A DNA stretch of 64,000 bases from contig CAMPDV010001303.1 in the NCBI GenBank assembly GCA_946699065.1, positions 1-64,000 of the forward strand. Direction: 5' to 3'. The stretch's first letter is position 1. The number at the start of each line of letters is the position of its first letter. The DNA is from Loxodes magnus. Its lineage: Eukaryota; Ciliophora; Karyorelictea; Loxodida; Loxodidae. This document shows positions 1 to 64,000 of this stretch, in pieces. The notes below the pieces were generated by a model. It searched no databases. It worked only from the letters and a program-made list of their open reading frames with translations, and was not told where the DNA came from. Made by a program: the position numbers and the translations under genes.

Positions 1-804
1 GTAATAAAAAGTTCTTAAGATTAATTCATATTGAAGTTAAAAAACTTTAACCTTAGTAGTTTAAAAATTTATCGAAACTTATAAATATAAACAATGTAAG
101 AATTATTTTCTAAGTAGCATAATAATTTATAGCAAATTGAGATTTATTTTTGCAATAATTTTAATGATAATCAACTGATATCTTTAATGTAAAACTGTTC
201 TAGTTTAGAATCTATTATATTAGATTCATTATATGAACTTACTAATATATCTTTGAAGAAAATAGGAGATTTTGGATAGAATTATAAAGAAATATCTTTT
301 ATTTCTGTTAGCCAACTTTCTAATAAAACTCTATGTTATATTTTTGAGAATTGTAGAAAACTAACAAAGTTATCTCTTAATTAAATGAAAAAACTAAAAA
401 ATAAGACTTTATAATCTTTGAGTTAAAACTGTAAGGAGTTAGAAAGTTTAAAATTGATAGATTGCATAATGTTAGATGAGAATTGAATAGATGAAATAGT
501 TAAAATAAGCAAATTAAAATAATTATAGTTTTAAGGAACTTAACTAAATAATAAAGATATAGTAAAAATAGTAACTAACTGTAAACATTTAAAAATATTA
601 AATCTTATGCATTTAAAGGATGTTACATAAGAAGGCTTTCCAATTTATGATTTAGAGGGATAAGAATATCCTTTTTATAGAAATCTTAAATATCTATATA
701 TTATTGGAACGTCAATAAGAGAACAGTGGGTTAGAAAACTTAAATAGAAGTTCGTAAGGATGACAGTAATCCATAATGTCGAGAAAGGTAGCAAACAAAC
801 TTGA
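1..804 (+). pseudogene. F-box/LRR protein, C-terminal part (copy 0)
   Basis: This is the last 267 codons plus stop of the F-box/LRR frame that is complete at 7908-9746. It begins in frame at the first base of the window and ends at TGA 802-804 in the ciliate code. It holds the C-terminal leucine-rich repeats, which start with Cys-containing segments such as NCRKLTKLSLNQMKKL and NCKELESLKLIDC. One in-frame TGA lies at 484-486 (codon 507 of the full frame), in the middle of clear LRR sequence. This copy carries the B-type 3' markers (GGAACTT near 536, ATGCATTT near 608, ATTATTGG near 700), shared only with copy 6. Confidence 0.75.
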
Positions 805-1550
805 AAGAAAGTAAATAACAATTTAATTTTCTATTTTAATAAATAATTTATGCTAATCAAATAAAATTACATAAAATAGCTTATTAAGATACTTTTTATA
901 TTGCATTATAAAATATAATCTTTACATAACTTTGTTCGTAATAAGTAGAATAAATAGAAATAAATAATGTTTCAGTTGTTATATATAAATAAATAACTAT
1001 TTAAATATGAATTGTAAAGCATAATAATAAATAAACTATTTAGCTTATGATATTAAAGCATTATTTTATATAATTATTTAGTTTATAATATTTAAATTAT
1101 AGTACTTAAACTTTAAAATGATAAAAAGGAAAGCAGATAGAGTATATAATAAAGAAGTTTAGTAGATAATTTATGAGAAATGAATAGTTTGAAAATAATA
1201 AATGACAAGTTTAGATGTAATAAATAATTAAAAAAAATGTTATAAGGTATGCTAAAATATTAAGTTTAAATGAAATATCTCTTATTATAATACGAAACTA
1301 AGTTATTTTAATTTGATCTAAAATTCTTATGTTGTTATCATATAAGTTATAATTTAATAAGAAATTAATATCTTAAATAAATTAAAGTTTCACTTTTTAC
1401 AAAAAATAAAGAACTTCATTGATACTATGATCGGTAACATATAATTAGTTTAAATTAGCTACTATCTAATTTTAATTCTAATAGATTTATTAAATACGTT
1501 AATAATCATTAAATTTTAAGAACTATTAAAAATAATATTCATAATTAAAA

Positions 1551-1848
1551 AGATGATGGGAGCTGAGATTGACCTTCTGAATCATACTTTCTGGTTTTAT
1601 AGCTAGGAACAAGTTCCTTTCCTGTCGCTGAGAAAGTCCCTGATCAAAGTCAACCTTTGCAAGGGAACGCCTTCCTCTTGATTATCCACTCCTGGTAGGG
1701 GCTGGCTTGAAGCCTGGCTGCCCATAGCGATGGAGCTCCCTGGCAGCTGCTTTTCGAAAGCAACAGGATATCCCCGTTATCCCCATGAAGGGAGTGTTGG
1801 GGTCGTTAAACTGCAAGAAGTTGCAGTCCAAAACTCTTTAAGTTGGAA
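1551..1848. other. GC-rich island, copy in U0
   Basis: About 298 bp whose core (1561-1800) has 120 G+C of 240 bases by hand count, against about 20% in the spacer on both sides. The edges are abrupt: AT-rich sequence ending in AATTAAAA on the left, and a run of four AATT on the right (1847-1864). It contains several short stems (GGAAC/GTTCC, GCTTT/AAAGC, CTGCAA/TTGCAG). Several frames on both strands stay open for dozens of codons, but none is recognisable as a known family. This copy differs from the others by an extra C near 1783 and by G at 1826, which completes the CTGCAA-GAAG-TTGCAG stem. Function unknown: candidates are a structured RNA, a fragment of a foreign or mobile sequence, or a regulatory element. 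Confidence 0.8.
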
Positions 1849-1864
1849 TTAATTAATTAATTAA
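1847..1864. repeat. (AATT)n microsatellite at the island edge
   Basis: Four and a half AATT units mark the right edge of the GC island. The same run follows the island in every unit (for example 10786-10803 and 21000-21017). Confidence 0.8.
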
Positions 1865-3737
1865 AAATAATATAGACCAACCTTATCAATAATCTTATCA
1901 AATCACTTTAACCATTTCTATCTTATACATTTCTATTAAATTATTTAAACCAAAACCATAATTATAACCATCCCTTAAAAAATCTACTCTTACTTTATTA
2001 TATCAAATTAAGCCCAAAGCTTCTCTTTTAATTTTAGAAAATAAAAATATTTTTGATAATAATGAAAAATAAATTCTTATTTTATAAAGATTGTATAATA
2101 GTAACTAATATATATTTGTATAACTTACTTATTTATAAAATTTGCTAAACTTATTTTGTTAATTAATAAATTAAATAACTTTCTATATGATAGAAGTAAC
2201 TTATACCCTTTATAGTAGAATAATAAACTTAAGATTTTTATAAAAAAGTAATTAATAAACATTTTTATATGTTATTTTTAATGTATTAATCTCTATATGC
2301 TTATACTAATATTAAACGATCATAATACTATTGATTAAATACATTCATTCTAAATGTTATATCTTAGTGTTGATTTAAAAATTAATTTATTTAAGATATT
2401 ATAAAATTGAATATCTCAAATAAAGTTTATTCTTAATGGTTTAATATTAAAAACATAGTAGAAGGATTTTATTAAATTCCCTAAGAATTTAAATTAAATG
2501 TTAGCTTTGATTAATATAATATCTTAAATTTAATATATTAATCCTTTATTATATATTTAGTATATTTAATAAGACTTAATTTTAGTGAAATACTAATTAA
2601 AATTAGAATAAATAAAATATTTTATCTTTTTTATTTTTAGTTTATATGAATAAAGATATTTAGTGTTATTGATTTATTTTATTCTCTTTTCATTAACTTT
2701 GTTGACTGAAAGTTAAATAAAAGATTAAATATTTTTGTTATCTATTAAAAAATATTTTCCAGTTCTCTTGATGATTTACTTTTGAGCTGTTTATTTCTCC
2801 TTAGTTATTGAAGTAAAGCTTTTATTAATTAATGGTTTTTTTAAAATGAATGACTTTTAAGTTTTTTATTTTTCAGTTTAGATATTAATTTAACAAAATA
2901 CTTTTAATCTCTTTTGAATAAATAATTCAATGAATTACAATAATAGCAAGAATTGTTTTATTTTTTACTTATAAATTGAATATCTTCTATTATCATTCAA
3001 TCTTAACTCTTTCTTTAATTAAGTAGAAAAATGATTTTAACTGCCTAATCCTCTTGTTTATTGAAATATTTGATTTTAGTGATAAGCTTAATTTGAGGTG
3101 AGTTTTGTGGGTTGATGGTTAAGAATTGATCTGTTTGTTGAGATAAATGTTGATGGTATTTGTGGATTTGTTAATTGACTATAATGTTGATATATTGCAT
3201 AGTTATATTAAATATATTGATAGTTATAATATGTTGAATTATAAGTTAAGTATTTGAATAAAAAGATTACAATATAAGTGTATTTATTTTGTAATAATTT
3301 AAAGTTTGATTTGATTTATACTTTATGTTGTATATCTAATTAAAGTAAAGAAAATTGTAGATTAAACATAAATTTAAAATTATAAATATCTAAATTTATT
3401 ATTCTTTTATTTAGATATTTAATTATAGACAAATATTTATCGTTATAAATTTAAAAAATTAGAATTTTATCTCTAATTTTATTTTAATTTAAATTAAGAA
3501 AAAAGTAGATTGGAATTATATAAAGTTTAATAAAATCTGATTTAAAATGATAGAATTATTTTAAATGTTTACCTTAATAATAAACTATAATATAGATTTT
3601 TTAAAAGTAATCAAAATATTATCAATCTCTTAAGAAACTAAATTTATAATTTGTTCATGTTTATTTTTATTTTTTACATTGAGGAAGTAGAAATAAATTA
3701 AATTTAATATCTTAAAATAAATCTTTTTACAGTAGAG

Positions 3738-3857
3738 TTATTTTAGTATCTCTCTAAAATAGATAGTAAATAATATATTTTATAGATACAAATTGTTAAA
3801 TAAAATTTCATCTATATAAAAATAATATTTACTATCTATTATAGAGATATAAAATAA
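3738..3857. repeat. Long imperfect inverted repeat (stem-loop)
   Basis: The left arm at 3738-3775 (core AATAGATAGTAAATA with TATCTCT upstream) pairs with the right arm at 3822-3857 (core TATTTACTATCTATT), with a few mismatches and one bulge, around a loop of about 46 nt. The stem is much longer than the chance hairpins in this AT-rich DNA. It recurs at about 12678-12797, 22892-23011, 33106-33225, 43318-43437, 53533-53653 and 62494-62613. It could be a MITE-like relic or a cruciform element. No target-site duplication could be identified. Confidence 0.6.
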
Positions 3858-6746
3858 TTAAGTCTTAAGTATAATTTGAGATAGCCTTTCTATAGTAAAA
3901 TATGTATATAAAATATATTATTTTTATGGCTTTTAATATTTAAAAATATAGATAGTTTTTAAATAAATTTATCTTATTTTCATTTATTTTTATCTATAGA
4001 AAACTAATAAAAAATTAATAATAAAAATTGTATAATCTGAGTTAAATAAAATACTTAGCTAAATTAATAATTTAATAACTAATTCCTACCTTTAAGTGTG
4101 ATAAAACTAATTAATTATTAACATTTTGAAGCATAATTACTATGATAAGTTATTTTAATCTTTATATTTAATAAAATTTACATTTTATATATATTTTAAT
4201 TTTAACATTTAAGAGTAGATATTAATTGCAATCTGCTATAACTTATATTTATCACATTTCAAGATTGCTTAAATAGACAAATATATCAACATTTTTAAAC
4301 TAAACTAATCTATTATACTAAGAGCAGCTAGCTTTAATACAAACTATTAAATTAACATTTTAAAAATTAAACTAACCTAAAATATTTAATGAAGGTATGA
4401 AGCATACCTATAAAAGTAAAACATGTAATTCAAATTAATTTAAAAGAGAAATTATCAAATAATAATAAAATAATTTGATAAAAGTTAAAAGCTGAAGTAA
4501 AGAATTATTATACTATTTTACAATATTATATTTTAACTTTTACAAAATACAGATTTATTATGAACAAAATTACCTTGCAACAGTAAAAACTCTTATGCAA
4601 AATTACAAATATACAAATATAACCAATAAATAAACACATTAAACATAAAGAGAGAAAATTCTATTTACAAAATATTTAAAACTATCTAAAAATATTAAAA
4701 AGTACAATAATCCATAAAATAAACATAAAATTCATAAAAAATTTAAATTAATTTCATTCTAATTATTAAAAATATCTTAAATAATTAGAAATATCATTAA
4801 ACCCTAATTAAATTTAAAAAATTTCATAAAATAACTTTAATTTTATTTTTAAAAAGATTAAAAAAATTGATATATTATTTGAAAATCTAAATAAAAATAT
4901 ATTTATTAAAAAACAGATAACTGCTAAGCTTGCTTTAATTACATTAAATGAATAACAATCATTAATAAATATTTAATTTTTTTAAGTTTTTAGTGATTAA
5001 TTAATAAGATAATTAATGTTTAAGAAATTTCTCTTTATTTATACTTAGTTTAATAAAGCAAATAATAAATAAAATTAGAAATTTATAAGATTTTTTAATT
5101 AATCTTTTATAACTTAAATTAGTCTGATTATATAACATAATATTTTTCTTGTTTCTTTTGAATTACTAAAATATCTTTTATATATGTTTACTTTTTCTTG
5201 AATTGCTTTTTTAAATATTTCATTTTATTTAGCTACGAATTATTTATAATATGTAAATTTATGTATAATAGTTTTTTAGTGTTTTTTCTTTTGAAAGAAT
5301 TTTGTAGCTAATTAAGATTAAACTTATTTAATAGATATTTAAAACTAAAATAATTTAAAATTTATGTTTACATTATACACTTTATTAGATTAATTATATA
5401 AAATCATATTTAATGCTATACTTAAATCTTCATTAGAATAAATAGAATTTAATAAAAAATAATTAATAATTTAAATTAAAAAATACAGTTATAAGTTAAG
5501 AAGTTTTAGAAGCAAAGAAAATGAGAATAAAAATTAAAGCAAGAAATTAATTATTATTTTCTAAGCTAAAAATAACTTAATAAAAATAAATAATCATATT
5601 TTTAACTATTAACTTAGTTATTTAACTCTATTTATTTTCATATTATCTGATATTTTATTATACAATTATAATTACTATGCATATAATTTAAAAAGTTAAT
5701 TATATAAAAAAATAAGTAACTAAAATGAAAAGCAATTAAGTTGTTATAATGAATAAAGACTCTTTGTAAATAAATAACAAAACATTTACTTAATAAAGAG
5801 TATTTAGTGAATTTCATTACATAGCATTAATCAATTCATTTTTAATATAATATTAAATTAAAAGAAAATCATAACTTGGCTATAAAAAGGCTATTTATTT
5901 ATAAAAATTAAAAAAATATTTTTAAGGGGGTTCAGATAAATTCTATATATTTTTTTATAAGCCTTTAAAATATTTTTTAATTCTATTATATAAAATTATA
6001 AAAAGTAATCAAAAATTGATATTTAAATTTAATTATTTTTGGTTTTAACAGCTATTTTTAAATACTTTATTAATTGATAAAAAGCTATTTCGAAAGATAA
6101 AGTTTAATTAAAATATTTTTACTAATTATTGAATCATATTTTAGTTTTATTTTACAAAAATAGTATTAAATAAAAATTAAATACCCAGCTTTTTATTAAG
6201 ATAGAAAAACTATAAGAAAATATTTATTAAATGTTATTCAATTAACCTTTTATTTCTTTTTTGTTTATGATTTTAATTGTAAACATTCATTTTTAATAAT
6301 GACATAAGTTTTACCTATGAATTTTGATATAAAATATACGAAATAATATTAAGTAAAATAAAGTTAGATATTAAAATCATATTACTGTTGAAAAATCTGC
6401 TTAAAAAGATTTAGAAAGTAAAAAAGTAATTTAAACAGTTCCATCACTTAGACTAAATGTAAATAACTTTATCTACTCTAAATATAATATTATTATAAAA
6501 ATTGTATTCCTGAATGTTTTATAATAATTATTTAACATTAATTTAAATATTAAAATTAACTTAGATTGTAAAATATATGTTAATTACTTAAGTTATGGTA
6601 AGTAAAATTTAATCTACTTATAGTAAATTATTGTTGCTTTTTAAATTTAAGTTATTTTATTAAAAATAAAAGCTTATTAAGCTTTTATAATAATTAAGTT
6701 AGGAATTATTCTTTAATTATTTATTTTTAATATTTTATTAAGATTA

Positions 6747-7762
6747 AGAGGCAAATCAATACCAAACAAAGGAAAAACCGTAGACGGATTATTGTTCGAC
6801 TGGTTAAGAAGAGAATTTTATATTTGAATAATACTGCACAGCAATAAAAGTAGAATTAAAAATTGAAGACAAAGAAATATTTATAGATGATGGTAATAAC
6901 AATTAAAAAGGAAAGAAAAACATTAATCGTGCAATATGAGAATATAGAGTATATGTAGAAGATAGAAAGGATGGAGTAAATGATAACAACATTACAATAT
7001 AGAAAAACATGATTTGATGAATATGTAGTAGGACCACCTAACTACCTGAGATATAATAAAAATAGAAAAGAAGAAATATGTCACCTATTTAGAATAAGAA
7101 CGAGATGTAATGGGAGTTAGGATTACTTAAAAGAAAGACACCTAATTATGACAAGTCAGTGCCTTTTCTGTAACAATGCAAGAGAAAACGAAAGGCATAT
7201 CATAGAAAACTGTTCAGAATACAAAGAAGGAAGATAATAATGTATCTGAAATCTTAGAGCATCAGGAGTGAGAGATAAGGAATGGAACTATTTGATATAA
7301 TATGAGGAACGGCAAATTCGAGAAATTCATTAGAATCTAAGAAAATTAAAAAGAGCTAAAGCTGACTTGATAATAAAAGATTATATCAAAAATATATTAG
7401 AAAAAAGGAAAAGAGGATATATAGAAAAGAAAATTGAATGCAAAAGAGAAATAAGAAAAGACTATAGAGCAGGAAAAGGATAATTTTTATGAGTGTATAG
7501 AAGCTTGATCAAGAAGAAAAGAATTAGAAATGAAAATTAGTAAGATATGTAAGAAAAAATAAATAAAGCTTGTAATAAAGATCTAAAAATGCGTAGATAG
7601 ATAGAAGACAGAAGAAAAAGAGTTAACATTGAGGAAAGTGAGGAAGATATGTAACTAATAAGAGAAGAATTTCTATTACCTGAAGGCTTACTTGAAGAAA
7701 CGGACATATATTGAGATATGTAAAGAGCTGCGCACCAACGAGGTGCTACGCGCTCTATAATC
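6747..7762 (+). mobile_element. LINE (non-LTR retrotransposon) C-terminal fragment 1
   Basis: In the ciliate code this encodes the end of a LINE ORF2-type protein. The first stretch (6747 on) reads GKSIPNKGKTVDGLLFDWL; it shifts frame near 6815 (next segment EQYCTAIKVELKIEDKEI) and again near 7005. From about 7015 one frame runs to TGA 7712-7714. It has the C-terminal zinc finger of LINE proteins, CLFCNNARENERHIIENC (7160-7213; C-x2-C-x8-H-x4-C), preceded by an RIRTRCNG motif and followed by a long basic, charged tail. Internal TGAs interrupt it at CI-TGA-NLRA and FL-TGA-VYRS, and in this copy a TTA Leu codon has become TGA in ACATGATTTGAT near 7010. The endonuclease and RT catalytic motifs are absent, so it is 5'-truncated. 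It ends in the tail GCTCTATAATC (7752-7762), 145 nt before the next LRR start codon. Confidence 0.82.
7723..7762 (+). repeat. LINE 3' tail, fused short junction
   Basis: This 40-bp tail is the LINE-type version throughout, yet it is followed directly by TTATTTATTAATTT, the sequence that in long units follows the second tail. It is therefore the product (or the precursor) of an exchange between the two tails. The same junction occurs at 57532-57571. Confidence 0.8.
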
Positions 7763-7907
7763 TTATTTATTAATTTATATAATTTAAAAGTTTATTATAC
7801 TAATTTAAATCTATTTAAAATATGATTATGATTGTATAAATTATAAATATAGCCGTTATTCATAATTTAAGTATAAATAGTCTAATAAAATAAAAAATTA
7901 TAATAAA

Positions 7908-9746
7908 ATGTAAAGCAGGACTGATTAATCAACTAGTAGCTAAAACTATACACCAAATAGTTCAAATTGTTAATCCTCTTCTGATCGATAATAAGAAGAA
8001 TCTAATAAACACCACCAAGAAACTTAAGTAGCAGCCTAAATCCAAAACAATTTAGCATAAGATTAAAATAAAAAAAATAATTTGATAAATTAAAAAGAAT
8101 CAATAAAAGAGTATTAAGATTAAGAAATATCGCTTCCAATAAAGAGATTTCATGAACACTTAAACTAAGAAGAAGAGTTTTCTTAAGAATAATAAAGCAT
8201 TAAGTAGTTTAAAAGTAATAAATAAACTTTATTTTCAAATTCTTATATTCTTCAAAATATTTGTTAGTTCCTTAAAAATATAGACATTTGTAGATTACAG
8301 TAAGTTAGTTAATTTCTAAATAAGTTTAAGTATTAATTTGAAAAGTTAGAAATAAAAAAATATTCAAGTAATAAAGGCTACGTTTAAAATAAAAAAAACT
8401 GAACTCTCAAACAAATTTTATAATCTGATACTAAATTTCTTTAAATTAATACTTAAAATTGATAAGAAGAAAATTAAGCAGAAAAAATCTTTCAATAAAT
8501 AAAGAAATGCTTAGAACTAAAATTAAATTTATATCAAAAAGGATATAAACTAGTATAAGAAATTAATTTAATTGGACTAAATAATTTAGATAAAACCTTT
8601 CAAGAATATATTTCAAAATGCTCAAATCTAAAAAAACTTGTTTTAAGGTTTAACTTATTATTGGAAGAAAATTTAAATTTTTTGTAAAATTTGACTCGTT
8701 TATAATCCTTAGAAATCTTAGACATAAATTAGAAATAGATAACAGGAAAGTTTTTACTAGACTACTGTTAAGGATTAAATTTAAAGGAACTAAAAATATT
8801 TATTAAAGGAATTAATAAAGAAATGTTATTATAATATTTGTAATAAAAAGGAAAATTGTTAGAAGAAATAAATATTAACTATAATAGAGATATGGACAAG
8901 TATATTTATCTTTGTCCTAATTTAAACAAAATTGACTTTTATGTAATAAAAAGTTCTTAAGATTAATTCATATTGAAGTTAAAAAACTTTAACCTTAGTA
9001 GTTTAAAAATTTATCGAAACTTATAAATATAAACAATGTAAGAATTATTTTCTAAGTAGCATAATAATTTATAGCAAATTGAGATTTATTTTTGCAATAA
9101 TTTTAATGATAATCAACTGATATCTTTAATGTAAAACTGTTCTAGTTTAGAATCTATTATATTAGATTCATTATATGAACTTACTAATATATCTTTGAAG
9201 AAAATAGGAGATTTTGGATAGAATTATAAAGAAATATCTTTTATTTCTGTTAGCCAACTTTCTAATAAAACTCTATGTTATATTTTTGAGAATTGTAGAA
9301 AACTAACAAAGTTATCTCTTAATTAAATGAAAAAACTAAAAAATAAGACTTTATAATCTTTGAGTTAAAACTGTAAGGAGTTAGAAAGTTTAAAATTGAT
9401 AGATTGCATAATGTTAGATGAGAATTGAATAGATGAAATAGTTAAAATAAGCAAATTAAAATAATTATAGTTTTAAGAAACTTAACTAAATAATAAAGAT
9501 ATAGTAAAAATAGTAACTAACTGTAAACATTTAAAAATATTAAATCTTATGCGTTTAAAGGATGTTACATAAGAAGGCTTTCCAATTTATGATTTAGAGG
9601 GATAAGAATATCCTTTTTATAGAAATCTTAAATATCTATATATTAGTGGAACGTCAATAAGAGAACAGTGGGTTAGAAAACTTAAATAGAAGTTCGTAAG
9701 GATGACAGTAATCCATAATGTCGAGAAAGGTAGCAAACAAACTTGA
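7908..9746 (+). pseudogene. F-box/leucine-rich-repeat protein (copy 1)
   Basis: A 613-codon frame in the ciliate code starts at ATG 7908 in an AAAATG context and ends at TGA 9744. Residues 1-110 are Gln/Asn/Ser-rich. About 112-150 resemble an F-box (ILQNICQFLKNIDICRLQQV). About 215-600 hold some 14 leucine-rich repeats of roughly 26 residues, many opening with Cys (CSNLKKL, CSSLESI, CRKLTKL, CKELESL, CKHLKIL), as in FBXL/AMN1 proteins. Such proteins choose substrates for SCF ubiquitin ligases; that role is inferred. TGAs interrupt the frame at 8400, 8460 and 9426. The first two could be removed by a 114-bp frame-preserving intron (8368-8481, GTAATA...GCAG); the third lies inside an LRR, so a nonsense mutation is the simplest reading. 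Markers change from B type (last near 8590) to A type (first near 9475). Confidence 0.78.
8368..8481 (+). other. Candidate intron in the F-box/LRR gene
   Basis: GTAATA at 8368 and GCAG ending at 8481 enclose 114 bp, a multiple of three, containing the in-frame TGAs at 8400-8402 and 8460-8462. Splicing would join an A to AA and keep the frame. An AG at 8466 (99 bp) would also work. This is a prediction from splice dinucleotides only; the same arrangement is present in the other copies. Confidence 0.35.
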
Positions 9747-10490
9747 AAGAAAGTAAATAACAATTTAATTTTCTATTTTAATAAATAATTTATGCTAATC
9801 AAATAAAATTACATAAAATAGCTTATTAAGATACTTTTTATATTGCATTATAAAATATAATCTTTACATAACTTTGTTCGTAATAAGTAGAATAAATAGA
9901 AATAAATAATGTTTCAGTTGTTATATATAAATAAATAACTATTTAAATATGAATTGTAAAGCATAATAATAAATAAACTATTTAGCTTATGATATTAAAG
10001 CATTATTTTATATAATTATTTAGTTTATAATATTTAAATTATAGTACTTAAACTTAAAATGATAAAAAGGAAAGCAGATAGAGTATATAATAAAGAAGTT
10101 TAGTAGATAATTTATGAGAAATGAATAGTTTGAAAATAATAAATGACAAGTTTAGATGTAATAAATAATTAAAAAAAATGTTATAAGTATGCTAAAATAT
10201 TAAGTTTAAATGAAATATCTCTTATTATAATACGAAACTAAGTTATTTTAATTTGATCTAAAATTCTTATGTTGTTATCATATAAGTTATAATTTAATAA
10301 GAAATTAATATCTTAAATAAATTAAAGTTTCACTTTTTACAAAAAATAAAGAACTTCATTGATACTATGATCGGTAACATATAATTAGTTTAAATTAGCT
10401 ACTATCTAATTTTAATTCTAATAGATTTATTAAATACGTTAATAATCATTAAATTTTAAGAACTATTAAAAATAATATTCATAATTAAAA

Positions 10491-10787
10491 AGATGATGGG
10501 AGCTGAGATTGACCTTCTGAATCATACTTTCTGGTTTTATAGCTAGGAACAAGTTCCTTTCCTGTCGCTGAGAAAGTCCCTGATCAAAGTCAACCTTTGC
10601 AAGGGAACGCCTTCCTCTTGATTATCCACTCCTGGTAGGGGCTGGCTTGAAGCCTGGCTGCCCATAGCGATGGAGCTCCCTGGCAGCTGCTTTTCGAAAG
10701 CAACAGGATATCCCCGTTATCCCATGAAGGGAGTGTTGGGGTCGTTAAACTGCAAGAAGTTGCAATCCAAAACTCTTTAAGTTGGAA
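10491..10787. other. GC-rich island, copy in U1
   Basis: Near-identical to the island at 1551-1848, with CCC rather than CCCC in the TTATCCC tract and TTGCAATCC instead of TTGCAGTCC. These two states are shared by all copies except U0. Confidence 0.8.
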
Positions 10788-11354
10788 TTAATTAATTAAT
10801 TAAAAATAATATAGACCAACCTTATCAATAATCTTATCAAATCACTTTAACCATTTCTATCTTATACATTTCTATTAAATTATTTAAACCAAAACCATAA
10901 TTATAACCATCCCTTAAAAAATCTACTCTTACTTTATTATATCAAATTAAGCCCAAAGCTTCTCTTTTAATTTTAGAAAATAAAAATATTTTTGATAATA
11001 ATGAAAAATAAATTCTTATTTTATAAAGATTGTATAATAGTAACTAATATATATTTGTATAACTTACTTATTTATAAAATTTGCTAAACTTATTTTGTTA
11101 ATTAATAAATTAAATAACTTTCTATATGATAGAAGTAACTTATACCCTTTATAGTAGAATAATAAACTTAAGATTTTATAAAAAAGTAATTAATAAACAT
11201 TTTTATATGTTATTTTTAATGTATTAATCTCTATATGCTTATACTAATATTAAACGATCATAATACTATTGATTAAATACATTCATTCTAAATGTTATAT
11301 CTTAGTGTTGATTTAAAAATTAATTTATTTTAAGATATTATAAAATTTCATATC

Positions 11355-17972: not shown

Positions 17973-18119
17973 TTATTTATTAATTTATATAATTTAAAAA
18001 GTTTATTATACTAATTTAAATCTATTTAAAAATATGATTATGATTGTATAAATTATAAATATAGCCGTTATTCATAATTTAAGTATAAATAGTCTAATAA
18101 AATAAAAAATTATAATAAA

Positions 18120-46300: not shown

Positions 46301-46330
46301 TTATTTATTTTTAATATTTTATTAAGATTA
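40386..46330. other. AT-rich spacer of unit U4
   Basis: GC island at 41130-41426, inverted repeat at about 43318-43437, minus-strand 786-bp frame at 41995-42780. Nothing else assignable. Confidence 0.7.
41130..41426. other. GC-rich island, copy in U4
   Basis: Appears identical to the U1 and U3 copies by eye. Confidence 0.8.
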
Positions 46331-48608: not shown

Positions 48609-48754
48609 TTATTTATTAATTTATATAATTTAAAAAGTTTATTATACTAATTTAAATCTATTTAAAATATGATTATGATTGTATAAATTATAAATATAGC
48701 CGTTATTCATAATTTAAGTATAAATAGTCTAATAAAATAAAAAATTATAATAAA

Positions 48755-50595: not shown

Positions 50596-53500
50596 AAGAA
50601 AGTAAATAACAATTTAATTTTCTATTTTAATAAATAATTTATGCTAATCAAATAAAATTACATAAAATAGCTTATTAAGATACTTTTTATATTGCATTAT
50701 AAAATATAATCTTTACATAAACTTTGTTCGTAATAAGTAGAATAAATAGAAATAAATAATGTTTCAGTTGTTATATATAAATAAATAACTATTTAAATAT
50801 GAATTGTAAAGCATAATAATAAATAATCTATTTAGCTTATGATATTAAAGCATTATTTTATATAATTATTTAGTTTATAATATTTAAATTATAGTACTTA
50901 AACTTTAAAATGATAAAAAGGAAAGCAGATAGAGTATATAATAAAGAAGTTTAGTAGATAATTTATGAGAAATGAATAGTTTGAAAATAATAAATGACAA
51001 GTTTAGATGTAATAAATAATTAAAAAAAATGTTATAAGTATGCTAAAATATTAAGTTTAAATGAAATATCTCTTATTATAATACGAAAACTAAGTTATTT
51101 TAATTTGATCTAAAATTCTTATGTTGTTATCATATAAGTTATAATTTAATAAGAAATTAATATCTTAAATAAATTAAAGTTTCACTTTTTACAAAAAATA
51201 AAGAACTTCATTGATACTATGATCGGTAACATATAATTAGTTTAAATTAGCTACTATCTAATTTTAATTCTAATAGATTTATTAAATACGTTAATAATCA
51301 TTAAATTTTAAGAACTATTAAAAATAATATTCATAATTAAAAAGATGATGGGAGCTGAGATTGACCTTCTGAATCATACTTTCTGGTTTTATAGCTAGGA
51401 ACAAGTTCCTTTCCTGTCGCTGAGAAAGTCCCTGATCAAAGTCAACCTTTGCAAGGGAACGCCTTCCTCTTGATTATCCACTCCTGGTAGGGGCTGGCTT
51501 GAAGCCTGGCTGCCCATAGCGATGGAGCTCCCTGGCAGCTGCTTTTCGAAAGCAACAGGATATCCCCGTTATCCCATGAAGGGAGTGTTGGGGTCATTAA
51601 ACTGCAAGAAGTTGCAATCCAAAACTCTTTAAGTTGGAATTAATTAATTAATTAAAAATAATATAGACCAACCTTATCAATAATCTTATCAAATCACTTT
51701 AACCATTTCTATCTTATACATTTCTATTAAATTATTTAAACCAAAACCATAATTATAACCATCCCTTAAAAAATCTACTCTTACTTTATTATATCAAATT
51801 AAGCCCAAAGCTTCTCTTTTAATTTTAGAAAATAAAAATATTTTTGATAATAATGAAAAATAAATTCTTATTTTATAAAGATTGTATAATAGTAACTAAT
51901 ATATATTTGTATAACTTACTTATTTATAAAATTTGCTAAACTTATTTTGTTAATTAATAAATTAAATAACTTTCTATATGATAGAAGTAACTTATACCCT
52001 TTATAGTAGAATAATAAACTTAAGATTTTATAAAAAAGTAATTAATAAACATTTTTATATGTTATTTTTAATGTATTAATCTCTATATGCTTATACTAAT
52101 ATTAAACGATCATAATACTATTGATTAAATACATTCATTCTAAATGTTATATCTTAGTGTTGATTTAAAAATTAATTTATTTTAAGATATTATAAAATTT
52201 CATATCTCAAATAAAGTTTATTCTTAATGGTTTAATATTAAAAACATAGTAGAAGGATTTTATTAAATTCCCTAAGAATTTAAATTAAATGTTTAGCTTT
52301 GATTAATATAATATCTTAAATTTAATATATTAATCCTTTATTATATATTTAGTATATTTAATAAGACTTAATTTTAGTGAAATACTAATTAAAATTAGAA
52401 TAAATAAAATATTTTATCTTTTTTTATTTTTAGTTTATATGAATAAAGATATTTAGTGTTATTGATTTATTTTATTCTCTTTTTCATTAACTTTGTTGAC
52501 TGAAAGTTAAATAAAAGATTAAATATTTTTGTTATCTATTAAAAAATATTTTCCAGTTCTCTTGATGATTTACTTTTGAGCTGTTTATTTCTCCTTAGTT
52601 ATTGAAGTAAAGCTTTTATTAATTAATGGTTTTTTAAAATGAATGACTTTTAAGTTTTTTATTTTTCAGTTTAGATATTAATTTAACAAAATACTTTTAA
52701 TCTCTTTTGAATAAATAATTCAATGAATTACAATAATAGCAAGAATTGTTTTATTTTTTACTTATAAATTGAATATCTTCTATTATCATTCAATCTTTAA
52801 CTCTTTCTTTAATTAAGTAGAAAAATGATTTTAACTGCCTAATCCTCTTGTTTATTGAAATATTTGATTTTAGTGATAAGCTTAATTTGAGGTGAGTTTT
52901 GTGGGTTGATGGTTAAGAATTGATCTGTTTGTTGAGATAAATGTTGATGGTATTTGTGGATTTGTTAATTGACTATAATGTTGATATATTGCATAGTTAT
53001 ATTAAATATATTGATAGTTATAATATGTTGAATTATAAGTTAAGTATTTGAATAAAAAGATTACAATATAAGTGTATTTATTTTGTAATAATTTAAAGTT
53101 TGATTTGATTTATACTTTATGTTGTATATCTAATTAAAGTAAAGAAAAATTGTAGATTAAACATAAATTTAAAATTATAAATATCTAAATTTATTATTCT
53201 TTTATTTAGATATTTAATTATAGACAAATATTTATCGTTATAAATTTAAAAAATTAGAATTTTATCTCTAATTTTATTTTAATTTAAATTAAGAAAAAAG
53301 TAGATTGGAATTATATAAAGTTTAATAAAATCTGATTTAAAATGATAGAATTATTTTAAATGTTTACCTTAATAATAAACTATAATATAGATTTTTTAAA
53401 AGTAATCAAAATATTATCAATCTCTTAAGAAACTAAATTTATAATTTGTTCATGTTTATTTTTATTTTTTACATTGAGGAAGTAGAAATAAATTAAATTT

Positions 53501-56500
53501 AATATCTTAAAATAAATCTTTTTACAGTAGAGTTATTTTAGTATCTCTCTAAAATAGATAGTAAATAATATATTTTATAGATACAAATTGTTAAATAAAA
53601 TTTCATCTATATAAAAAATAATATTTACTATCTATTATAGAGATATAAAATAATTAAGTCTTAAGTATAATTTGAGATAGCCTTTCTATAGTAAAATATG
53701 TATATAAAATATATTATTTTTATGGCTTTTAATATTTAAAAATATAGATAGTTTTTAAATAAATTTATCTTATTTTCATTTATTTTTATCTATAGAAAAC
53801 TAATAAAAAATTAATAATAAAAATTGTATAATCTGAGTTAAATAAAATACTTAGCTAAATTAATAATTTAATAACTAATTCCTACCTTTAAGTGTGATAA
53901 AACTAATTAATTATTAACATTTTGAAGCATAATTACTATGATAAGTTATTTTAATCTTTATATTTAATAAAATTTACATTTTATATATATTTTAATTTTA
54001 ACATTTAAGAGTAGATATTAATTGCAATCTGCTATAACTTATATTTATCACATTTCAAGATTGCTTAAATAGACAAATATATCAACATTTTTAAACTAAA
54101 CTAATCTATTATACTAAGAGCAGCTAGCTTTAATACAAACTATTAAATTAACATTTTAAAAATTAAACTAACCTAAAATATTTAATGAAGGTATGAAGCA
54201 TACCTATAAAAGTAAAACATGTAATTCAAATTAATTTAAAAGAGAAATTATCAAATAATAATAAATAATTTGATAAAAGTTAAAAGCTGAAGTAAAGAAT
54301 TATTATACTATTTTACAATATTATATTTTAACTTTTACAAAATACAGATTTATTATGAACAAAATTACCTTGCAACAGTAAAAACTCTTATGCAAAATTA
54401 CAAATATACAAATATAACCAATAAATAAACACATTAAACATAAAGAGAGAAAATTCTATTTACAAAATATTTAAAACTATCTAAAAATATTAAAAAGTAC
54501 AATAATCCATAAAATAAACATAAAATTCATAAAAAATTTAAATTAATTTCATTCTAATTATTAAAAATATCTTAAATAATTAGAAATATCATTAAACCCT
54601 AATTAAATTTAAAAAATTTCATAAAATAACTTTAATTTTATTTTTAAAAAAGATTAAAAAAAATTGATATATTATTTGAAAATCTAAATAAAAATATATT
54701 TATTAAAAAAACAGATAACTGCTAAGCTTGCTTTAATTACATTAAATGAATAACAATCATTAATAAATATTTAATTTTTTTAAGTTTTTAGTGATTAATT
54801 AATAAGATAATTAATGTTTAAAGAAATTTCTCTTTATTTATACTTAGTTTAATAAAGCAAATAATAAATAAAATTAGAAATTTATAAGATTTTTTAATTA
54901 ATCTTTTATAACTTAAATTAGTCTGATTATATAACATAATATTTTTCTTGTTTCTTTTGAATTACTAAAATATCTTTTATATATGTTTACTTTTTCTTGA
55001 ATTGCTTTTTTAAATATTTCATTTTATTTAGCTATGAATTATTTATAATATGTAAATTTATGTATAATAGTTTTTTAGTGTTTTTTCTTTTGAAAGAATT
55101 TAGTAGCTAATTAAGATTAAACTTATTTAATAGATATTTAAACTAAAATAATTTAAAATTTATGTTTACATTATACACTTTATTAGATTAATTATATAAA
55201 ATCATATTTAATGCTATACTTAAATCTTCATTAGAATAAATAGAATTTAATAAAAAATAATTAATAATTAAAATTAAAAAATACAGTTATAAGTTAATAA
55301 GTTTTAGAAGCAAAGAAAATGAAAATAAAAATTAAAGCAAGAAATTAATTATTATTTTCTAAGCTAAAAAATAACTTAATAAAAATAAATAATCATATTT
55401 TTAACTACTAACTTAGTTATTATAACTCTATTTATTTTCATATTATCTGATATTTTATTATACAATTATAATTACTATGTATATAATTTAAAAAGTTAAT
55501 TATATGCAAAAAAATAAGTAACTAAAATGAAAAGCAATTAAGTTGTTATAATAAATAAAGATTCTTTGTAAATAAATAAAGAAACATTTACTTTAATAAA
55601 GAGTATTTAGTGAATTTCATTACATAGCATTAATCAATTCATTTTTAGTATAATATTAAATTTAAAAGAAAATTATAACTTGGCTAAGAAGACTATTTAT
55701 TTCTAAAACATTTTCAAAAATATTTTTAAGAAAGTTGAGATAAAATTCTATATTTTTTTTTTCTAAGCCTTTAAAATATTTTTTTAATTCTAATATAAAA
55801 TTATAAAAAGTAATCAAAAATTGATATTTAAATTTAATTATTTTTGGTTTTAACAGCTATTTTTAAATACTTTATTAATTGATAAATAGCTATTTCGAAA
55901 GATAAAGTTTAATTAAAATATTTTTACTAATTATTGAATCATATTTTAGTTTTATTTTACAAAAATAGTATTAAATAAAAATTAAATACCCAGCTTTTTA
56001 TTAAGATAGAAAAACTATAAGAAAATATTTATTAAATGTTATTCAATTAACCTTTTATTTCTTTTTTGTTTATGATTTTAATTGTAAACATTCATTTTTA
56101 ATAATTGCTTAAGTTTTATCTATGGATTTTTATATAAAACATAAGAAATAATATCAATTAAAATAAAGTAAGATATTAAAATCATACTACTGTTGAAAAA
56201 ATTTGCTTAAAAAGATTTAGAAAGTAAAAAAGTAAATTAAATAGTCCATCATTTAGATTTAAATGTAAATAACTTTATCTACTCTAAATATAATATTATT
56301 ATAAAAATTGTATTCCTGAATGTTTTATAATAATTATTTAACATTAATTTAAATATTAAAATTAACTTAGATTGTAAAATATATGTTAATTACTTAAGTT
56401 ATGGTAAGTAAAATTTAATCTACTTATAGTAAAATTATTGTTGCTTTTTAAATTTAAGTTATTTTATTAAAAATAAAAGCTTATTAAGCTTTTTATAATA

Positions 56501-56554
56501 ATTAAGTTAGGAATTATTCTTTAATTATTTATTTTTAATATTTTATTAAGATTA
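50596..56554. other. AT-rich spacer of unit U5
   Basis: GC island at 51343-51639 and inverted repeat at about 53533-53653. The minus-strand frame (52207-52994) is broken by two insertions. Around 55100-55800 this spacer departs from U1-U4 (TTTAGTAGC, AAACATTTTCAAAAATATTTT), partly towards U0. Confidence 0.7.
51343..51639. other. GC-rich island, copy in U5
   Basis: As in U1 except GGGGTCATTAAA for GGGGTCGTTAAA near 51594, a change shared with U6. Confidence 0.8.
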
Positions 56555-57571
56555 AGAGGCAAATCAATACCAAACAAAGGAAAAACCGTAGACGGATTAT
56601 TGTTCGACTGGTTAAGAAGAGAATTTTATATTTGAATAATACTGCACAGCAATAAAAGTAGAATTAAAAATTGAAGACAAAGAAATATTTATAGATGATG
56701 GTAATAACAATTAAAAAGGAAAGAAAAACATTAATCGTGCAATATGAGAATATAGAGTATATGTAGAAGATAGAAAGGATGGAGTAAATGATAACAACAT
56801 TACAATATAGAAAAACATTATTTGATGAATATGTAGTAGGACCACCTAACTACCTGAGATATAATAAAAATAGAAAAGAAGAAATATGTCACCTATTTAG
56901 AATAAGAACGAGATGTAATGGGAGTTAGGATTACTTAAAAGAAAGACACCTAATTATGACAAGTCAGTGCCTTTTCTGTAACAATGCAAGAGAAAACGAA
57001 AGGCATATCATAGAAAACTGTTCAGAATACAAAGAAGGAAGATAATAATGTATCTGAAATCTTAGAGCATCAGGAGTGAGAGATAAGGAATGGAACTATT
57101 TGATATAATATGAGGAACGGCAAATTCGAGAAATTCATTAGAATCTAAGAAAATTAAAAAGAGCTAAAGCTGACTTGATAATAAAAGATTATATCAAAAA
57201 TATATTAGAAAAAAGGAAAAGAGGATATATAGAAAAGAAAATTGAATGCAAAAGAGAAATAAGAAAAGACTATAGAGCAGGAAAAGGATAATTTTTTATG
57301 AGTGTATAGAAGCTTGATCAAGAAGAAAAGAATTAGAAATGAAAATTAGTAAGATATGTAAGAAAAAATAAATAAAGCTTGTAATAAAGATCTAAAAATG
57401 CGTAGATAGATAGAAGACAGAAGAAAAAGAGTTAACATTGAGGAAAGTGAGGAAGATATGTAACTAATAAGAGAAGAATTTCTATTACCTGAAGGCTTAC
57501 TTGAAGAAACGGACATATATTGAGATATGTAAAGAGCTGCGCACCAACGAGGTGCTACGCGCTCTATAATC
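56555..57571 (+). mobile_element. LINE C-terminal fragment 6
   Basis: Same LINE end, with stop TGA at 57521-57523 and the intact ACATTATTTGATG variant (near 56816). The tail is joined directly to TTATTTATTAATTT, the short junction, 145 nt before the LRR start codon at 57717. Confidence 0.82.
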
Positions 57572-57716
57572 TTATTTATTAATTTATATAATTTAAAAGT
57601 TTATTATACTAATTTAAATCTATTTAAAATATGATTATGATTGTATAAATTATAAATATAGCCGTTATTCATAATTTAAGTATAAATAGTCTAATAAAAT
57701 AAAAAATTATAATAAA

Positions 57717-59557
57717 ATGTAAAGCAGGGACTGATTAATCAACTAGTAGCTAAAACTATACACCAAATAGTTCAAATTGTTAATCCTCTTCTGATCGATA
57801 ATAAGAAGAATCTAATAAACACCACCAAGAAACTTAAGTAGCAGCCTAAATCCAAAACAATTTAGCATAAGATTAAAATAAAAAAAATAATTTGATAAAT
57901 TAAAAAGAATCAATAAAAGAGTATTAAGATTAAGAAATATCGCTTCCAATAAAGAGATTTCATGAACACTTAAACTAAGAAGAAGAGTTTTCTTAAGAAT
58001 AATAAAGCATTAAGTAGTTTAAAAGTAATAAATAAACTTTATTTTCAAATTCTTATATTCTTCAAAATATTTTGTTAGTTCCTTAAAAATATAGACATTT
58101 GTAGATTACAGTAAGTTAGTTAATTTCTAAATAAGTTTAAGTATTAATTTGAAAAGTTAGAAATAAAAAAATATTCAAGTAATAAAGGCTACGTTTAAAA
58201 TAAAAAAAACTGAACTCTCAAACAAATTTTATAATCTGATACTAAATTTCTTTAAATTAATACTTAAAATTGATAAGAAGAAAATTAAGCAGAAAAAATC
58301 TTTCAATAAATAAAGAAATGCTTAGAACTAAAATTAAATTTATATCAAAAAGGATATAAACTAGTATAAGAAATTCATTTAATTGGACTAAATAATTTAG
58401 ATAAAACCTTTCAAGAATATATTTCAAAATGCTCAAATCTAAAAAAACTTGTTTTAAGGTTTAACTTATTATTGGAAGAAAATTTAAATTTTTTGTAAAA
58501 TTTGACTCGTTTATAATCCTTAGAAATCTTAGACATAAATTAGAAATAGATAACAGGAAAGTTTTTACTAGACTACTGTTAAGGATTAAATTTAAAGGAA
58601 CTAAAAATATTTATTAAAGGAATTAATAAAGAAATGTTATTATAATATTTGTAATAAAAAGGAAATTTGTTAGAAGAAATAAATATTAACTATAATAGAG
58701 ATATGGACAAGTATATTTATCTTTGTCCTAATTTAAACAAAATTGACTTTTATGTAATAAAAAGTTCTTAAGATTAATTCATATTGAAGTTAAAAAACTT
58801 TAACCTTAGTAGTTTAAAAATTTATCGAAACTTATAAATATAAACAATGTAAGAATTATTTTCTAAGTAGCATAATAATTTATAGCAAATTGAGATTTAT
58901 TTTTGCAATAATTTTAATGATAATCAACTGATATCTTTAATGTAAAACTGTTCTAGTTTAGAATCTATTATATTAGATTCATTATATGAACTTACTAATA
59001 TATCTTTGAAGAAAATAGGAGATTTTGGATAGAATTATAAAGAAATATCTTTTATTTCTGTTAGCCAACTTTCTAATAAAACTCTATGTTATATTTTTGA
59101 GAATTGTAGAAAACTAACAAAGTTATCTCTTAATTAAATGAAAAAACTAAAAAATAAGACTTTATAATCTTTGAGTTAAAACTGTAAGGAGTTAGAAAGT
59201 TTAAAATTGATAGATTGCATAATGTTAGATGAGAATTGAATAGATGAAATAGTTAAAATAAGCAAATTAAAATAATTATAGTTTTAAGGAACTTAACTAA
59301 ATAATAAAGATATAGTAAAAATAGTAACTAACTGTAAACATTTAAAAATATTAAATCTTATGCATTTAAAGGATGTTACATAAGAAGGCTTTCCAATTTA
59401 TGATTTAGAGGGATAAGAATATCCTTTTTATAGAAATCTTAAATATCTATATATTATTGGAACGTCAATAAGAGAACAGTGGGTTAGAAAACTTAAATAG
59501 AAGTTCGTAAGGATGACAGTAATCCATAATGTCGAGAAAGGTAGCAAACAAACTTGA
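57717..59557 (+). pseudogene. F-box/LRR protein (copy 6)
   Basis: B type from end to end (AATAAACACC, CCAATAAAGAG, GACATTTGTAGATTACAG, GGAACTT, ATGCATTT, ATTATTGG). The three shared TGAs are present, plus an extra G near 57728 that shifts the frame after about four codons and an extra T near 58070. It is the reference for the B haplotype, because copy 0 is truncated and copy 1 is a mosaic. Confidence 0.75.
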
Positions 59558-62500
59558 AAGAAAGTAAATAACAATTTAATTTTCTATTTTAATAAATAAT
59601 TTATGCTAATCAAATAAAATTACATAAAATAGCTTATTAAGATACTTTTTATATTGCATTATAAAATATAATCTTTACATAACTTTGTTCGTAATAAGTA
59701 GAATAAATAGAAATAAATAATGTTTCAGTTGTTATATATAAATAAATAACTATTTAAATATGAATTGTAAAGCATAATAATAAATAAACTATTTAGCTTA
59801 TGATATTAAAGCATTATTTTATATAATTATTTAGTTTATAATATTTAAATTATAGTACTTAAACTTTAAAATGATAAAAAGGAAAGCAGATAGAGTATAT
59901 AATAAAGAAGTTTAGTAGATAATTTATGAGAAATGAATAGTTTGAAAATAATAAATGACAAGTTTAGGTTAATAAATAATTTAAAAGGATGTTATAAGTA
60001 TGTTAAAATATTAAGTTTAAATGAAAATATCTCTTATTATAATACGAAACTAAGTTATTTTAATTTGATCTAAAATTCTTATGTTGTTATCATATAAGCT
60101 ATACTTTAATAAGAAATTAATATCTTAAATAAATTAAAGTTTCACTTTTTACAAAAAATAAAGAACTTCATTGATACTATGATCGGTAACATATAATTAG
60201 TTTAAATTAGCTACTATCTAATTTTAATTCTAATAGATTTATTAAATACGCTAATAATCATTAAATTTTAAGAACTATTAAAAATAATATTCATAATTAA
60301 AAAGATGATGGGAGCTGAGATTGACCTTCTGAATCATACTTTCTGGTTTTTATGGCTAGGAACAAGTTCCTTCCTGTCGCTGAGAAAGTCCCTGATCAAA
60401 GTCAACCTTTGCAAGGGAACGCCTTCCTCTTGATTATCCACTCCTGGTAGGGGCTGGCTTGAAGCCTGGCTGCCCATAGCGATGGAGCTCCCTGGCAGCT
60501 GCTTTTCGAAAGCAACAGGATATCCCCGTTATCCCATGAAGGGAGTGTTGGGGGTCATTAAACTGCAAGAAGTTGCAATCCAAAACTCTTTAAGTTGGAA
60601 TTAATTAATTAATTAAAAATAATATAGACCAACCTTATCAATAATCTTATCAAATCACTTTAACCATTTCTATCTTATACATTTCTATTAAATTATTTAA
60701 ACCAAAACCATAATTATAACCATCCCTTAAAAAATCTACTCTTACTTTATTATATCAAATTAAGCCCAAAGCTTCTCTTTTAATTTTAGAAAATAAAAAT
60801 ATTTTTGATAATAATGAAAAATAAATTCTTATTTTATAAAGATTGTATAATAGTAACTAATATATATTTGTATAACTTACTTATTTATAAAATTTGCTAA
60901 ACTTATTTTGTTAATTAATAAATTAAATAACTTTCTATATGATAGAAGTAACTTATACCCTTTATAGTAGAATAATAAACTTAAGATTTTATAAAAAAGT
61001 AATTAATAAACATTTTTATATGTTATTTTTAATGTATTAATCTCTATATGCTTATACTAATATTAAACGATCATAATACTATTGATTAAATACATTCATT
61101 CTAAATGTTATATCTTAGTGTTGATTTAAAAATTAATTTATTTTAAGATATTATAAAATTTCATATCTCAAATAAAGTTTATTCTTAATGGTTTAATATT
61201 AAAAACATAGTAGAAGGATTTTATTAAATTCCCTAAGAATTTAAATTAAATGTTAGCTTTGATTAATATAATATCTTAAATTTAATATATTAATCCTTTA
61301 TTATATATTTAGTATATTTAATAAGACTTAATTTTAGTGAAATACTAATTAAAATTAGAATAAATAAAATATTTTATCTTTTTTATTTTTAGTTTATATG
61401 AATAAAGATATTTTAGTGTTATTGATTGATTTTATTCTCTTTTTCATTAACTTTGTTGACTGAAAGTTAAATAAAAGATTAAATATTTTTGTTATCTATT
61501 AAAAAATATTTTCCAGTTCTCTTGATGATTTACTTTTGAGCTGTTTATTTCTCCTTAGTTATTGAAGTAAAGCTTTTATTAATTAATGGTTTTTTAAAAT
61601 GAATGACTTTTAAGTTTTTTATTTTTTCAGTTTAGATATTAATTTAACAAAATACTTTTAATCTCTTTTGAATAAATAATTCAATGAATTACAATAATAG
61701 CAAGAATTGTTTTATTTTTTACTTATAAATTGAATATCTTCTATTATCATTCAATCTTTAACTCTTTCTTTAATTAAGTAGAAAAATGATTTTAACTGCC
61801 TAATCCTCTTGTTTATTGAAATATTTGATTTTAGTGATAAGCTTAATTTGAGGTGAGTTTTTGTGGGTTGATGGTTAAGAATTGATCTGTTTGTTGAGAT
61901 AAATGTTGATGGTATTTGTGGATTTGTTAATTGACTATAATGTTGATATATTGCATAGTTATATTAAATATATTGATAGTTATAATATGTTGAATTATAA
62001 GTTAAGTATTTGAATAAAAAGATTACAATATAAGTGTATTTATTTTGTAATAATTTAAAGTTTGATTTGATTTATACTTTATGTTGTATATCTAATTAAA
62101 GTAAAGAAAATTGTAGATTAAACATAAATTTAAAATTATAAATATCTAAATTTATTATTCTTTTATTTAGATATTTAATTATAGACAAATATTTATCGTT
62201 ATAAATTTAAAAAATTAGAATTTTATCTCTAATTTTATTTTAATTTAAATTAAGAAAAAAGTAGATTGGAATTATATAAAGTTTAATAAAATCTGATTTA
62301 AAATGATAGAATTATTTTAAATGTTTACCTTAATAATAAACTATAATATAGATTTTTTAAAAGTAATCAAAATATTATCAATCTCTTAAGAAACTAAATT
62401 TATAATTTGTTCATGTTTATTTTTATTTTTTACATTGAGGAAGTAGAAATAAATTAAATTTAATATCTTAAAATAAATCTTTTTACAGTAGAGTTATTTT

Positions 62501-64000
62501 AGTATCTCTCTAAAATAGATAGTAAATAATATATTTTATAGATACAAATTGTTAAATAAAATTTCATCTATATAAAAATAATATTTACTATCTATTATAG
62601 AGATATAAAATAATTAAGTCTTAAGTATAATTTGAGATAGCCTTTCTATAGTAAAATATGTATATAAAATATATTATTTTTATGGCTTTTAATATTTAAA
62701 AATATAGATAGTTTTTAAATAAATTTATCTTATTTTCATTTATTTTTATCTATAGAAAACTAATAAAAAATTAATAATAAAAATTGTATAATCTGAGTTA
62801 AATAAAATACTTAGCTAAATTAATAATTTAATAACTAATTCCTACCTTTAAGTGTGATAAAACTAATTAATTATTAACATTTTGAAGCATAATTACTATG
62901 ATAAGTTATTTTAATCTTTATATTTAATAAAATTTACATTTTATATATATTTTAATTTTAACTAAGAGTAGATATTAATTGCAATCTGCTATAACTTATA
63001 TTTATCACATTTCAAGATTGCTTAAATAGACAAATATATCAACATTTTTAAACTAAACTAATCTATTATACTAAGAGCAGCTAGCTTTAATACAAACTAT
63101 TAAATTAACATTTTAAAAATTAAACTAACCTAAAATATTTAATGAAGGTATGAAGCATACCTATAAAAGTAAAACATGTAATTCAAATTAATTTAAAAGA
63201 GAAATTATCAAATAATAATAAAATAATTTGATAAAAGTTAAAAGCTGAAGTAAAGAATTATTATACTATTTTACAATATTATATTTTAACTTTTACAAAA
63301 TACAGATTTATTATGAACAAAATTACCTTGCAACAGTAAAAACTCTTATGCAAAATTACAAATATACAAATATAACCAATAAATAAACACATTAAACATA
63401 AAGAGAGAAAATTCTATTTACAAAATATTTAAAACTATCTAAAAATATTAAAAAGTACAATAATCCATAAAATAAACATAAAATTCATAAAAAATTTAAA
63501 TTAATTTCATTCTAATTATTAAAAATATCTTAAATAATTAGAAATATCATTAAACCCTAATTAAATTTAAAAAATTTCATAAAATAACTTTAATTTTATT
63601 TTTAAAAAAGATTAAAAAAATTGATATATTATTTGAAAATCTAAATAAAAATATATTTATTAAAAAACAGATAACTGCTAAGCTTGCTTTAATTACATTA
63701 AATGAATAACAATCATTAATAAATATTTAATTTTTTTAAGTTTTTAGTGATTAATTAATAAGATAATTAATGTTTAAGAAATTTCTCTTTATTTATACTT
63801 AGTTTAATAAAGCAAATAATAAATAAAATTAGAAATTTATAAGATTTTTTAATTAATCTTTTATAACTTAAATTAGTCTGATTATATAACATAATATTTT
63901 TCTTGTTTCTTTTGAATTACTAAAATATCTTTTATATATGTTTACTTTTTCTTGAATTGCTTTTTTAAATATTTTATTTTATTTAGCTATGAATTATTTA
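59558..64000. other. AT-rich spacer of unit U6, to window end
   Basis: GC island at 60303-60599 and inverted repeat at about 62494-62613. The minus-strand frame (61168-61956) carries three insertions. No gene seen. Confidence 0.7.
60303..60599. other. GC-rich island, copy in U6
   Basis: The most altered copy: TTTTTATGGCTAGG near 60350, one T fewer in GTTCCTTCC, five Gs before TCATTAAA. It still matches the others closely over its full length, with the same edges. Confidence 0.8.

Follow-up and report, generated by a model that had tools for sequence, protein, structure and literature searches.

What maintains a gene-bearing unit of several kilobases in many head-to-tail copies in the genome of a ciliate? 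The question is raised by a stretch of 64,000 nucleotides from Loxodes magnus (Karyorelictea), hereafter the window, which forms the start of contig CAMPDV010001303.1 (C1303; 128,740 bp) in assembly GCA_946699065.1 (705,730,643 bases in 7,843 contigs). It consists of tandem units that join a leucine-rich repeat (LRR) gene of the FBXL type, a GC-rich island and the end of a long interspersed nuclear element (LINE). We consider it probable that the array belongs to a multi-locus, gene-bearing macrosatellite of the macronuclear genome of this karyorelict, which would keep and shuffle a repertoire of ubiquitin-ligase adaptors. The main new point is a positional excess of amino-acid change, which is supported but not settled.

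Self-comparison of the window showed that all 64,000 bases are head-to-tail tandem repeats. The offsets between shared 20-mers peaked at 10,212-10,214, 20,425-20,428 and 30,639, with a second set at about 8,942-8,962 and 19,154, and a recurrent marker sets the seven starts of U1-U7, giving six complete and two partial units (U0-U7; Table 1). Four of the complete units are long (10.21 kb) and two, U1 and U6, are short (about 8.95 kb). U2-U5 are 99.91-99.97% identical to one another, and a short and a long unit share 99.26-99.54%; leaving out the segment that the short units lack, the six complete units contain 87 substitution columns and 82 indel columns, 49 of the latter in homopolymers of at least four bases. 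C1303 is array throughout: both contig ends lie inside the array, and of its 13 complete units eight are long and five short. Kilobase-sized head-to-tail units thus extend over 128.7 kb of the assembly, as in a macrosatellite. A sequence-only reading of the window had described about 6.3 copies of one 10.2-kb unit joining an F-box/LRR gene, a GC island and a LINE end. The 20-mer offsets and the marker confirm tandem units over the whole window, and all three components were recovered (an FBXL-type LRR gene, a GC-rich stretch and a zf-RVT C-terminus), but the single unit length does not hold, since two of the six complete units are of the short class, and the segment missing from them is the same.

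L. magnus uses translation table 27, in which UGA is the sole stop codon and can also encode Trp, while TAA and TAG are read as Gln (PMC11441545). Read with this code, the LRR frame forms one uninterrupted gene that opens with MQSRTDQ, runs for 612 codons and closes with a TGA stop. All nine aligned copies, of which three are near-identical and the other six diverge by about 11-15% at the DNA level, have in-frame TGA codons at positions 165, 185 and 507; another five TGAs, at codons 370, 385, 524, 549 and 571, are each confined to single copies and fall at variable sites. The only invariant TGG is codon 588, 25 codons before the stop, and coding TGA is reported to be depleted within about 20 codons before stops (PMC11441545). 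Under code 6, every window copy has TGA within the gene, which would then be broken. This view was dropped because the same three TGAs are conserved in copies 11-15% different on other contigs and the species reads TGA as Trp. Caution is therefore advisable where TGA is read as a stop, as an intact gene can then seem broken.

Frameshifts are a separate matter. Shift-free gene copies make up 3 of the 13 on C1303 and two of the six complete ones in the window (U1 and U4). In the fetched parts of contig C1087, 5 of 9 starts found by pattern give shift-free copies, and four of five far copies that were fetched run unshifted to the same stop, the fifth being unshifted up to its last 9 or so codons. 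For the macronuclear assembly (706 Mbp), PacBio HiFi reads were assembled by Falcon, and the result was polished by Racon with reads of mapping quality at least 20 (PMC11441545). Because only such reads were used and 49 of the 82 indel columns lie in homopolymers, we infer that the homopolymer indels may be consensus errors, kept where near-identical units escaped polishing.

The LRR part of the protein matches the FBXL type in sequence and is predicted to fold like FBXL2 and FBXL17, as a solenoid of the FBXL kind. In 11 of the 14 repeats of the model the strand occupies repeat positions 3-7, in two it is shorter (3-6) and in one it lies at 6-9; in LRR proteins, alternating exposed residues of this strand form the concave binding face. 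A single-sequence structure prediction of 321 residues gave no confident fold (predicted local distance difference test, pLDDT, 34). An F-box ahead of the LRRs is probable, if weakly supported: an F-box-like model matched four of eight members (best E 0.035, a weak value), and the F-box model matched in one piece at E 0.046 and 14.1 bits, under the cut-off of 20.5, in a region where the confidence of the structure model is low.

Relatives of the gene were sought by querying the genome with 321 LRR residues, stops being read through; 124 hits were scored of 2,558 first-look candidates. A frame of at least 291 residues is kept in 123 of the 124, which lie on 20 contigs (19 besides C1303) and have 75 distinct scores. 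On contig C250, at least 37 relatives fall within 430 kb, with a median of 9.9 kb from one to the next. Some scores recur unchanged on several contigs, which suggests that the assembly is redundant, and the real copy number is uncertain.

Selection and exchange were analysed in a small sample of seven distinct gene copies, whose proteins differ by about 19-27% and whose DNA, on five contigs, differs by 11-15%. The mean ratio of nonsynonymous to synonymous differences (pN/pS) was 0.57 in the coding frame vs 0.66-0.97 in the five other frames. It was uneven along the gene: the F-box region had a ratio of 0.28 and most of the LRR part 0.49, against 1.50 at repeat positions 5, 7 and 8, which were chosen after the alignment had been seen (a register slid by +2 gives 1.43). 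At these positions the unweighted interval runs from 0.91 to 2.80, and a value as high as the observed one arose in 28 of 5,000 permutations of the labels. Weighting by the synonymous mutation spectrum gave 0.43, 0.66 and 2.00 (95% interval 1.27-3.46), respectively. These ratios support, without settling, an excess of amino-acid change at the predicted concave positions; the F-box region is constrained.

Variants have also been exchanged between copies. Among 214 biallelic informative sites, the share of site pairs failing the four-gamete test rose from 37% (less than 30 bp apart) through 56% (30-99 bp) to 64% (900 bp or more), and none of 1,000 permutations gave a close-pair value as low; repeated mutation can inflate all of these figures but not their increase with distance. 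Because failure climbs with distance, the copies on different contigs look like mosaics of short tracts. C1087 (56001-116000) contains a 23-kb higher-order repeat with two gene variants, B and C, whose genes are about 85% identical to those of the window and adjoin spacer that is about 99% identical; spacers have thus been homogenised while gene variants were kept.

Exchange is also suggested by the two unit classes. The segment missing from U1 and U6 spans 1,267 alignment columns and is flanked in long units by direct repeats, the LINE tails A and B, which are 75.7% identical over 115 columns and have the core GGTGCTACG[C/T]GCTCTATAATC. The join in the short units lies within this common core, which fits the expectation for exchange between the tails. 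Downstream of the join, U1 and U6 have substitutions in common, and elsewhere they differ; the array is therefore a mosaic. Because 951 bp of the segment find matches of 93-95% in distant array copies, the long unit is probably the older form and deletion between the tails is favoured over insertion; a short ancestral unit is disfavoured by the same matches. The tail pattern had zero exact matches in prokaryote or viral contigs. The LINE C-terminus matched zf-RVT at E 8.4e-5 (23.6 bits, under the cut-off of 27.5). Six-frame Pfam scans of U2 from 10300 to 20141 gave only this knuckle and an LRR family, with no reverse transcriptase domain, and a full-length LINE in the unit was rejected; by these matches, no more than the zinc-knuckle-bearing 3' end of a truncated LINE would be present. 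The stretch 17682-17960, before tail B, is nearly open if TGA is Trp, and its last part, RTACHWGATCSII, is similar to the end of the LINE that precedes tail A; it is perhaps a second, diverged LINE end.

An assembler might have strung one or a few loci together into such an array. Contig C5003 equals C1303 over the first 23,280 bp and the last 16,167 bp without a mismatch and leaves out 58,767 bp; it could represent an allele that has fewer units or a path taken by the assembler, and because of it the order and number of the near-identical units are unproven from the assembly. The authors of the L. magnus genome themselves suspected misassembly of low-complexity repeats (PMC11441545). We nevertheless hold an assembly product to be very improbable, as the two unit lengths share one breakpoint, the gene copies on five contigs diverge in DNA, and the 13 units of C1303 contain 190 substitution columns, at 61 of which the rarer base is found in at least two units. 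Moreover, a 1,021-bp patch, the most divergent in U1, is found again on C1087 at 99.9% identity. The array variants are not mere noise, and the earlier contention that unit-specific variants exclude a simple assembly duplication gains from the U1 patch, although it does not carry over to the exact order and number of units. The suggestion that unequal crossing-over produced the array fares well, given the common breakpoint in the LINE tails, the mosaic patches across units and contigs, and a contig 58.8 kb shorter in units.

A real array could still be without function, a neutral macrosatellite expanded by unequal crossing-over with the F-box/LRR gene as a mostly decayed passenger. Shifts in 10 of the 13 C1303 copies as assembled would agree with this, as would a gene G+C as low as that of the spacer and the fact that 12 of 15 substitutions in the gene among the complete window units (to 19830 in U2) alter the protein. 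It is unlikely, however, in view of the frame kept by all but one of the scored relatives, the far copies that stay unshifted to the same stop or nearly so, the coding-frame ratio below those of the five other frames and variation that tracks the LRR register, while the shifts themselves may partly reflect retained homopolymer errors. The 99.9% identity of U2-U5 would suit an array for dosage, in which many copies together supply a single protein in quantity, in the manner of rDNA or histone clusters; divergence among the seven distinct proteins, concentrated at the predicted binding face, makes this quite improbable. Finally, the sequence-only reading had placed the DNA in a germline setting of the Tetrahymena type and linked it to the young LRR genes of that ciliate. 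Gln at TAA/TAG, AT-rich DNA and an LRR gene close to a LINE end are common ground, but an LRR/LINE array confined to the germline by elimination from the soma is scarcely credible here: the in-frame TGAs are conserved, the single uninterrupted frame contains none of the 90-bp exons with phase-2 introns of the Tetrahymena class, and the matching published assembly comes from sorted macronuclei of a ciliate in which no extensive DNA elimination was found (PMC11441545). Neither part of that proposal is supported.

In the reading that we prefer, a macrosatellite of adaptor genes, each 9-10 kb unit would hold one uninterrupted FBXL-type gene. If expressed, its probable F-box would dock on Skp1 in a Skp1-cullin-F-box (SCF) ligase, and its long LRR solenoid would hold the target. 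Unequal crossing-over and gene conversion would alter copy number, keep spacers uniform and pass short tracts from one gene copy to another, and selection would preserve the frame and the F-box region while favouring change at exposed residues of the concave LRR face. The outcome would be a repertoire of adaptors with many specificities against variable targets, for which intracellular parasites, symbionts, mobile elements and non-self proteins are candidates. That a single-celled eukaryote uses a large recombining adaptor repertoire, with the concave face under diversifying selection, for intracellular recognition (immune or self/non-self) is a tentative extension of this scheme. Large diversified receptor repertoires occur in plants, animals and fungi, and, if the scheme is correct, a repertoire of ubiquitin-ligase adaptors in an unedited ciliate soma would be a new setting for them. 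No published report of this array was among the matches listed in literature searches, which does not prove its absence from print, and the word F-box has no occurrence in the main text of PMC11441545. The tandem-repeat search of that paper was set to periods up to 2 kb (PMC11441545), and searches limited in this way may miss arrays with 9-10 kb units.

The GC island (G+C 45-57% in 100-base steps vs about 20%) is a dispersed short element inserted with a target-site duplication. B-type units on C1087 preserve the empty site with one copy of AAAAATAATAT, of which U2 has two. At least 12 copies of the element, 92-97% identical, were found on 11 other contigs (40 places scored of 2,356 candidates), and these 12 end within about 40 bases of the bounds of the U2 element. 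An RNA gene, a vector and a bacterial insert were considered for the island and ruled out: Rfam gave no match in U2 at E up to 1, ARAGORN found no tRNA there, nothing matching was present in E. coli genomes, plasmids or phages, and the folding energy is ordinary (z -1.3 and -1.9). We name it an element rather than a short interspersed nuclear element, a small-RNA origin being unsupported by Rfam and ARAGORN in U2. On C1087 (L023 6377-6925 vs 6908 onward; window 10478/10802), identity to the window unit rises abruptly, from about 91% to 99%, where the insertion site of the element lies.

Two further observations concern the AT-rich spacer. In U2 it contains long imperfect inverted repeats at 12678-12797, 11035-11218 and 11507-11609, each matching its own complement at 68-81% across 108-189 columns. 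The minus strand of 21569-23911, which is very AT-rich, has 780 codons without TGA and no Pfam match, and the corresponding stretches of U1, U2 and U4 are differently broken up in the list of open reading frames.

Table 1. Features of the window, positions 1 to 64,000 of C1303
Feature	Positions	Strand	Basis
U0, partial; 3' end with last ~0.8 kb of a gene copy (placed from U6)	1..987	+	987 bp identical to U6 tail
U1, short type, 8,942 bp	988..9929	+	marker and alignment
U2, long type, 10,213 bp, reference unit	9930..20142	+	marker and alignment
U3, long type, 10,214 bp	20143..30356	+	marker and alignment
U4, long type, 10,212 bp	30357..40568	+	marker and alignment
U5, long type, 10,211 bp	40569..50779	+	marker and alignment
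U6, short type, 8,961 bp	50780..59740	+	marker and alignment
U7, partial; array continues to contig end at 128,740	59741..64000	+	alignment
F-box/LRR gene of U1, 612 codons, TGA = Trp at 165/185/507, stop TGA 9744-9746, no shift	7908..9746	+	
Gene copy of U2, extra T near 19805 shifts last ~50 codons in assembly (end approximate)	18120..19959	+	
Gene copy of U3, single-base indel shifts in assembly (end approximate)	28333..30173	+	
F-box/LRR gene of U4, 612 codons, TGA = Trp at 165/185/507, stop TGA 40383-40385, no shift	38547..40385	+	
Gene copy of U5, single-base indel shifts in assembly (end approximate)	48755..50595	+	
Gene copy of U6, shift near start in assembly (end approximate)	57717..59557	+	
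Predicted LRR solenoid of U4 gene, residues 217-604, alternating strands and helices	39195..40358	+	
GC island, dispersed element of ~323 bp with (AATT)n end	10479..10801 (U2)		copies elsewhere
11-bp target-site duplication AAAAATAATAT, left copy	10468..10478		empty-site comparison
11-bp target-site duplication AAAAATAATAT, right copy	10802..10812		empty-site comparison
LINE 3' end, truncated, start uncertain; zf-RVT knuckle ~16038-16172	15963..16701 (U2)	+	zf-RVT match
LINE tail A	16671..16782 (U2)	+	tail comparison
Segment of ~1.26 kb, in long units, not in U1/U6	16702..17961 (U2)	+	unit alignment
LINE tail B, directly upstream of gene	17931..18044 (U2)	+	tail comparison

Several known systems resemble parts of this array. 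The FBXL receptors of SCF ligases (FBXL2, FBXL17, Skp2 and TIR1/COI1) are alike in LRR sequence and fold and in the probable F-box before the LRRs, whereas here the family is large and tandem, its variants are shuffled and the F-box model matches weakly. The F-box families of Caenorhabditis are likewise expanded, with the F-box under purifying selection and the substrate-binding domain under stronger positive selection (PMC12062965, citing Thomas 2006); however, that domain is FTH or FBA2 rather than LRR, and no macrosatellite is described in the available portion of PMC12062965. In man and mouse, gene-bearing macrosatellites such as USP17/RS447 (PMC2874809, PMC3018141) also place a ubiquitin-pathway gene in a tandem repeat, but USP17 is a deubiquitinase, whereas the gene of L. 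magnus is a predicted adaptor. The 90-bp-exon LRR genes of Tetrahymena, which lie beside REP retrotransposons (PMC6564038), offer a parallel within the ciliates, with LRR genes, nearby LINE tails and proposed unequal crossing-over; they differ from the uninterrupted FBXL-type frame, the 9-10 kb units and the assembly described here, which agrees with the macronuclear one of another ciliate.

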